64,000 nt of DNA from Catenulispora acidiphila DSM 44928 (GTDB lineage: Bacteria; Actinomycetota; Actinomycetes; Streptomycetales; Catenulisporaceae). Below, one piece after another: positions 12,200 through 12,844 of this stretch. Every line of letters starts with the position of its first letter. The stretch's first letter is position 1. The stretch spans positions 7,750,001 through 7,814,000 of the forward strand of contig NC_013131.1 of NCBI RefSeq assembly GCF_000024025.1, read 5' to 3'. The notes under the pieces are model-generated. The model was not told the origin of the DNA, did not search any database, and was given only the letters and a program-made list of their open reading frames with translations. Made by a program: the position numbers and the translations under genes.

Positions 12200-12348
12200 C
12201 CCGAATACACCTTCTAATGGCGATACACACCATTCGGCGAACCCTCGAGCACCCCGATAATCCGTTCGCCGCCGCCCAGCGAGCCCACTACCGTTAGATA
12301 CGTTCCCAGGCGCAAACGGGCCAGGGGCACCAACTCAATAGTCTTACT

Positions 12349-12489
12349 CCCGCCGGGTGCGCAGGAGAGGGTTACTTCCACCTTTCACGTGGGTGACGCA
12401 GGTTCGAATCCTGCCGGTCCTGTCCGCAGGACTGTCGTCTAGCGGCCAAGGACACTTCCGTACCTTCCCCGACTCGATCTCCGGCGGGA
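12349..12489 (+). ncRNA. Paired flanks enclosing the permuted tRNA-like gene
   Basis: The sequences on either side of the tRNA-like core can base pair. Outer helix: TCCCGCCGG (12348-12356) with CCGGCGGGA (12481-12489), nine perfect pairs plus a G-U. Inner helix nested inside it: GGAGAGGGTTAC (12364-12375) with GTACCTTCCC (12460-12469), ten pairs including one G-U, with two single-base bulges. Together they would bring the two ends of the permuted tRNA next to each other, as expected for a precursor that is trimmed or spliced at the anticodon stem. These helices are my own pairing by eye; no covariation support is available. Confidence 0.5.
12378..12455 (+). tRNA. Circularly permuted tRNA-Glu(UUC)-like gene
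   Basis: All parts of a tRNA-Glu are present but in permuted order. The 3' part comes first: anticodon arm CCAC, loop CTTTCAC (anticodon TTC, 12384-12386), GTGG(G); variable TGAC; T arm GCAGG, TTCGAAT, CCTGC (12398-12414); 3' acceptor strand CGGTCCT (12415-12421); discriminator G12422. A 5-base linker TCCGC follows. Then comes the 5' part: acceptor strand AGGACTG (12428-12434), TC, D stem GTCT and GGAC around loop AGCGGCCAA (12437-12453), A12454, C12455. The acceptor strands pair in all 7 positions (one G-U). Joining C12455 to C12378 gives a perfect CCCAC/GTGGG anticodon stem and a normal 73-base tRNA. No CCA is encoded. No normally ordered copy is present: no matching 5' half lies upstream and no anticodon arm lies downstream. 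Confidence 0.78.
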
Positions 12490-12535
12490 TCTGCGCTTCC
12501 CCTCTGGGTGCGCGGGCGGCCGCGAAAGGGTTCGG

Positions 12536-12844
12536 ATGATCGCGCGGATGTGGCGGGGATGGGCTTCGGCGGCGACCGCCGACGACTACCAGCGGCACTA
12601 CGAATCGGAGGTCGCCGAGCATCTCCGGCAGGTCCCGGGCTTCCGCGGCGCCCGCCTGCTCCGCGGTGCCGACGGCGAGGAGGTCCTGTTCACCTCGATC
12701 GTGGTCTTCGCGAGCATGGACGACGTGCGCGGGTTCGCCGGCGACGATCCCGGCCGCGCCGTCGTCGAGGAGACCGCCCGCCGCGCGCTGACCCGCTGGG
12801 ACGAGCGCGTCACCCACCACGACGTCGCCGTCGATCTGGGCTGA
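12536..12844 (+). CDS. Small antibiotic-biosynthesis-monooxygenase-like (ABM fold) protein
   Basis: 102 residues, ATG with GAAAGGG upstream. The pattern MIARMWRGWASAATADDYQ, the VPGFRGARLLR strand, the central FTSIVVFASMDDVRGF and a final HHDVAVD fit the ferredoxin-like ABM fold, a family of heme-degrading or cofactor-free monooxygenases and stress proteins. Closest neighbour is the permuted tRNA-like element 80 bases upstream on the same strand, which might share a transcript. Substrate unknown. Confidence 0.78.
   Translation: MIARMWRGWASAATADDYQRHYESEVAEHLRQVPGFRGARLLRGADGEEVLFTSIVVFASMDDVRGFAGDDPGRAVVEETARRALTRWDERVTHHDVAVDLG

Follow-up and report, generated by a model that had tools for sequence, protein, structure and literature searches.

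Y RNAs are partners of Ro60, in humans a lupus autoantigen, and of its bacterial orthologue Rsr. YrlA, one such RNA, is composed of an Rsr-binding stem and a tRNA-like domain, works together with PNPase and is reportedly modified by DusA and TruB (PMC8394870). Its structure can be overlaid on that of tRNA once a circular permutation is allowed for (PMC11472068), a role as competitive inhibitor of an anticodon nuclease has been proposed for it (PMC7790460), and the Salmonella molecule is available as PDB 6CU1, with Chen 2014 and Wang 2018 as its sources. Permutation is also known from the tRNA genes of algae and archaea, which carry the same order of parts and whose transcripts are excised and ligated to normal tRNAs (Soma 2014, PMC3978253). 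The permuted two-piece tmRNA likewise has adjacent acceptor strands in reverse order. Since YrlA is itself a tRNA mimic with circular permutation, the RNA described here, at 12348-12489 of the window (the whole 64-kb stretch of Catenulispora acidiphila DSM 44928 DNA that was analysed), is of a known kind. Its form with a whole anticodon arm appears to be new: an anticodon hairpin in YrlA is not mentioned in the literature found, a set to which the primary YrlA papers (Chen 2014; Wang 2018) do not belong.

The preliminary description of this DNA had claimed tRNA-Glu-like parts in permuted order at 12378-12455. Such parts, namely the anticodon arm, T arm, acceptor strands and D arm, are indeed all found where they had been placed, and the two acceptor strands (12428-12434 with 12415-12421) pair at all seven positions. 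Rotating the sequence by joining 12428-12455 to 12378-12422 gives a 73-mer that ARAGORN reports as tRNA-Glu(TTC), as had been anticipated, and of the tRNAs recovered for this genome the 73-mer is closest to the normal tRNA-Glu(UUC) (alignment score 28.7), the second-best match being a tRNA-Arg (17.7). A scanner for the permuted order, requiring a 5-bp T arm, 7/7 acceptor pairs and 4/4 D-stem pairs, returned one match in the window, at this very site, and 0 matches in 60 Markov-simulated 64-kb windows. All cloverleaf parts are thus present in the order of a circularly permuted tRNA gene. The proposed join of C12455 to C12378 holds in that the rotated 73-mer passes as a tRNA, but the anticodon arm is undivided: the 5′ half holds the whole hairpin, and the tRNA is broken between this arm and the D arm. 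The claimed extent, too, is right for the parts but short of the structured RNA, which reaches from 12348 to 12489 (Table 1). Without rotation, tRNA calls over the locus are made by ARAGORN (12354-12425) and by the Rfam tRNA model (29.2 bits against a cut-off of 29); both lie near threshold, and we rejected the unrotated tRNA-Glu at 12354-12425 as spurious. Annotations of other actinobacterial Y RNAs may contain false tRNAs of this kind, and the case warns that tRNA finders report part of such RNAs as tRNA.

Table 1. Features of the 142-nt RNA (window positions) and loci of the DUF7873-linked RNAs.
Feature	Position	Strand	Evidence
Whole Y-RNA-like ncRNA, 142 nt	12348..12489	+	Model R2, 83.9 bits, E 4.7e-15; 19-sequence alignment A2
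Conserved leader CCAACUCAAUAGUCUUAC, directly upstream	12330..12347	+	Near-identical in 4 species; DNA further upstream diverges
Outer basal stem P1, 5′ strand (UCCCGCCGGG)	12348..12357	+	Pairs with 12479-12489; 4/8 pairs compensatory
Ro-site-like motif GUGCGCAGG, 5′ side	12357..12365	+	Nearly invariant in 19 sequences
Upper basal stem P2, 5′ strand	12364..12372	+	Pairs with 12462-12470; 6/9 pairs compensatory
Anticodon arm, intact hairpin, loop CUUUCAC, triplet UUC at 12384-12386	12377..12393	+	2/4 counted pairs compensatory
T arm GCAGG-UUCGAAU-CCUGC	12398..12414	+	3/5 pairs compensatory
3′ acceptor strand CGGUCCU and discriminator-like G	12415..12422	+	Sequence; acceptor helix compensatory
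Loop UCCGC, joining the acceptor strands where a tRNA has free 5′/3′ ends	12423..12427	+	Sequence
5′ acceptor strand AGGACUG	12428..12434	+	7/7 with 12415-12421; compensatory in relatives
D arm GUCU-AGCGGCCAA-GGAC	12437..12453	+	2/4 pairs compensatory; 100% paired
Upper basal stem P2, 3′ strand	12462..12470	+	Pairs with 12364-12372; covariation
3′ partner GAUCU of the GUGCGCAGG motif (pair also given as GUGCGCAGG/GAUCUC)	12476-12480	+	
Outer basal stem P1, 3′ strand (CUCCGGCGGGA)	12479..12489	+	Pairs with 12348-12357; covariation
DUF7873-linked loci, C. acidiphila (L150, L161, L166)	G000:C1:3313552-3314596, 6402192-6403222		
Further DUF7873-linked loci	L151, L152, L157-L166, L173-L252		

Conservation of the locus does not stop at the tRNA parts: it includes the flanking sequences, which base-pair, and the basal stem made by the two RNA ends is similar to the stem by which Y RNAs bind Ro60. 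A BLAST search with 100 bases returned orthologues from four species of the genus as well as more weakly matching relatives from Streptomyces-like genomes. In two species of the genus the RNA lies between a DUF4265 gene and a sugar ABC permease gene, and in two further species, for which the permease side alone is available, that side matches. Covariance model R2 was built from 14 sequences, all outside the genus, with a structure derived de novo by RNAalifold; searched against the window, it places the RNA as in Table 1, the runner-up scoring 9.1 bits. Covariation was assessed in 19 aligned sequences over 37 pairs in seven helices, including two basal helices and those of the anticodon, T, D and acceptor arms. 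Paired cells amount to 96.4% against 76.5% in shuffled alignments, 23 of the 37 pairs are changed on both sides (16 in the shuffles), and covariation scores 0.572, compared with 0.195 for shuffled alignments and no more than 0.094 for slid ones. A search of relatives, suggested in the preliminary description, thus bears out the permuted order, which is conserved, and the acceptor, D, T and anticodon stems, which covary. The basal stems P1 and P2 show compensatory change in 10 of their 17 pairs together with a conserved internal-loop motif, as is characteristic of Y RNAs, and we take the GUGCGCAGG motif to resemble the Ro site of vertebrate Y RNAs. The loop that closes the acceptor stem differs in length and letters among the aligned relatives. 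The minimum-energy fold of the single sequence retains the basal stem and T arm and departs from the alignment structure in a shifted anticodon hairpin and in favouring other pairs in the acceptor and D regions. A sigma-70 promoter consensus and an intrinsic terminator were sought for the 142-nt RNA and neither was found; the conserved leader CCAACUCAAUAGUCUUAC is a possible promoter or 5′ end.

The Rfam YrlA model (RF02553) aligns to 12394-12453, comprising T arm, acceptor strand, loop, acceptor strand and D arm in the same permuted order, so the YrlA-type module is present beside a basal stem of the Ro/Rsr-binding type. The alignment scores 14.7 bits, well below the gathering cut-off of 69, which was passed by none of the 10 actinobacterial genomes tested; at that threshold Rfam finds no Y RNA in any tested locus. 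Unlike YrlA, the RNA keeps a complete anticodon hairpin, is longer (142 nt against the 114 positions of the Rfam model) and is linked neither to rsr nor to an rtcBA operon. We conclude that the locus is very probably a Y RNA and a partner of the Rsr (TROVE protein) of C. acidiphila, an assignment drawn from sequence comparison and co-occurrence. More broadly, Streptomyces, Catenulispora and related actinobacteria commonly carry Y RNAs, frequently as sets of two or three, none of which is found at the Rfam cut-off.

The distribution of the RNA follows that of Ro60. In a sample of 297 genomes of the class, a strong match (E<=1e-9) was obtained in 39 of the 43 genomes with a TROVE gene and in 0 of the 254 without one (Fisher p about 1e-44, with genomes counted without correction for relatedness); eight families are represented among the 39. 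In 37 of these 39 genomes the TROVE gene is no more than 3.5 kb from the best match, a count that is favoured for Streptomyces and less so for other families, since more than half of the 19 sequences used to train model R1 came from beside TROVE genes. Many of the Streptomyces-like TROVE genes examined adjoin an RNA of the same anatomy. The C. acidiphila genome has one TROVE gene (G000:C1:361027-361212), whose product is identified through matches to Pfam and to a PHROG RNA-binding family and through its similarity to TROVE proteins in the PDB. Proximity to rsr is a common, optional feature of such RNAs, and the RNA at 12348-12489, 7.4 Mb from its own TROVE gene, is one of the two exceptions among the 39. 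Two further Y RNAs occur in the same genome: a minimal Y RNA without a tRNA head adjoins the TROVE gene (G000:C1:362090-362164, L093), and a third, with a permuted tRNA-like head, lies at G000:C1:3472924-3473077 (L092). The minimal Y RNA stands beside the Ro60 gene in the same layout in several species of the genus. The third Y RNA has no anticodon hairpin, and its basal stem enters at the anticodon loop.

The anticodon arm is formed by pairing of T12377/C12378-C12381 with G12389-G12393 around the loop 12382-12388. In the 19-sequence alignment, selected without regard to the anticodon loop, C32, U33 and A37 are invariant (19/19) while the triplet varies. Within the genus it reads UUC, GUC, GUC and AUC in four copies, three of them shown to be syntenic, and the anticodon is therefore not conserved even among orthologues. 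A scan by strict criteria found the hairpin in at least 25 distinct Y RNAs of four families, with 11 triplets; because the scan itself demanded U33 and A37, the evidence that these two are invariant comes from the 19-sequence alignment. Many other rsr-linked Y RNAs are without the hairpin. Invariant loop bases around a freely varying triplet indicate a mimic of anticodon-loop shape and not a decoder, and suggest that the arm may be read by its shape and not by codon. Some actinobacterial Y RNAs thus imitate a whole tRNA, anticodon loop included, and the free triplet within a conserved hairpin offers a direct test of Y RNAs as decoys for enzymes that damage or modify tRNA.

The preliminary description had gone on to propose that the RNA yields a tRNA-Glu, either ligated or held together as two pieces. 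Its permuted tRNA-Glu stands as a real, conserved and covarying structure, but not as a tRNA gene: the basal stem unites the two halves, the triplet drifts and the RNA tracks Ro60. For the product itself we find no support, as the acceptor end is closed by a loop, the basal stem covaries and a normal tRNA-Glu(UUC) is present; with the permuted topology of YrlA already known, a ligated or two-piece tRNA need not be invoked. A functional permuted gene, circularised and cut or used in two pieces for decoding or another role of an aminoacyl-tRNA, would agree with a rotated sequence acceptable as tRNA-Glu(UUC) and with the RtcB ligase gene of the genome. We nevertheless regard it as very improbable, given that at least one normal tRNA-Glu(UUC) is encoded in the same genome, that the ends are tied by a covarying stem which processing would have to remove, that the variable acceptor loop offers no conserved processing site, and that the triplet changes among syntenic copies while presence of the RNA follows Ro60. 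Much the same low standing is given to a two-piece RNA resembling permuted tmRNA, in which RNase P and 3′ processing would cut the acceptor loop and the pieces, held by the stems, would possibly be aminoacylated. Seven acceptor pairs with a short loop recall permuted tmRNA precursors, and G12422 could serve as a discriminator base; against this, neither the length nor the sequence of the loop is constant, some relatives (L067, L085) have an extended acceptor stem, there is no conserved CCA, and A1-U72 and other identity elements drift. The C. acidiphila RNA, in contrast to the permuted two-piece tmRNA, lacks a tag and any mRNA-like domain, and ARAGORN makes no tmRNA call in the window, so that neither the tag-encoding region nor the fold of a tmRNA is recognised there.

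A dead remnant of tandem tRNA-Glu genes truncated on both sides, or the scar of an integration site, was considered on account of ACTTCC at both ends of the block (12374-12379 and 12454-12459), and can hardly be credited at all, in view of compensatory changes across genera and families, synteny kept within the genus and conserved flanking stems. The repeat itself was rejected as a recombination footprint, its first copy being the conserved 5′ linker UACUUC of these RNAs and its second copy unconserved in relatives. The remaining alternative shares the Y RNA identity and differs in the effector alone: the full tRNA head would serve as a specific decoy for enzymes of the anticodon loop, be they anticodon nucleases or modification enzymes, and not as a PNPase tether. 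Recurrence of the hairpin across families and triplets, and the inhibitor role proposed for YrlA, speak for such a decoy, and the many rsr-linked Y RNAs without the hairpin speak against it; we regard it as possible, though on balance rather unlikely.

The most likely reading is that the RNA binds Ro60 by its stem and presents a tRNA decoy or tether. As sequence comparison shows, a module derived from tRNA-Glu tops a covarying basal stem that carries the Ro-site-like motif; the stem is inserted between D arm and anticodon arm and the acceptor ends are joined by a short loop, which is why the tRNA reads as circularly permuted. Rsr, encoded elsewhere in the genome, would bind the basal stem and stabilise the RNA, and the exposed tRNA-like head would either tether a tRNA-binding effector, which in the best-studied case, Deinococcus, is PNPase, or decoy enzymes that act on tRNA. 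Neither ligation, CCA addition nor decoding would be needed. With the Deinococcus Y RNA of RYPER (Rsr-Y RNA-PNPase), the RNA would share the presumed role of tether and gate on the TROVE protein (PMC4726728, PMC8394870); the PNPase partner is a feature of the Deinococcus complex and is putative for C. acidiphila. Whereas the permuted tRNAs of algae and archaea are processed into normal tRNAs, in C. acidiphila the permuted form would be the final fold, and its opening holds a putative protein-binding stem.

The Y RNA model also matched permuted tRNA-like RNAs that occur in tandem and differ in their basal stem, in C. acidiphila and in two relatives that lack TROVE. Genes for DUF7873 (PF25283) lie directly upstream of one or two such RNAs, whose basal stem is unlike the Ro site. 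A permuted tRNA-like RNA stands beside all 10 DUF7873 genes in a class sample of 118 genomes; in named Streptomyces, Kitasatospora and Catenulispora genomes it is found at no fewer than 78 of 80 DUF7873 loci, against 0 of 80 control stretches for those loci. The de novo consensus structure of the linked RNAs has 36 pairs, 29 of them compensatory. For the protein, the AlphaFold model has a mean pLDDT of 55, and searches returned neither a solved relative nor any literature. DUF7873 and its permuted tRNA mimic look like a second, Ro-independent RNA-protein pair. A wider view, which we offer tentatively and with more doubt than belief, is that actinobacterial Y RNAs of the present form mimic a whole tRNA, with an anticodon arm that does not decode and acts as bait for enzymes of the anticodon loop (anticodon nucleases, for example), that the same design is used independently by the Ro-free RNP of DUF7873 and two RNAs, and that circularly permuted tRNA mimics make up a general class of bacterial RNA, for the most part uncatalogued.

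Tandem arrangement is also seen among the Y RNAs proper. Just downstream of the C. acidiphila RNA, CTCTGGGTGCGCGGGCGGCCG at 12502-12522 looks like the beginning of another Y RNA in tandem, which is complete at this place in three relatives (L033, L034, L035) and seemingly truncated in C. acidiphila, where a short ABM-like ORF (12536-12844) takes its place. In Streptomyces-like genomes two or three different Y RNAs stand in a row (L036:1240-1636, L067, L069, L089), and their heads derive from different tRNAs.
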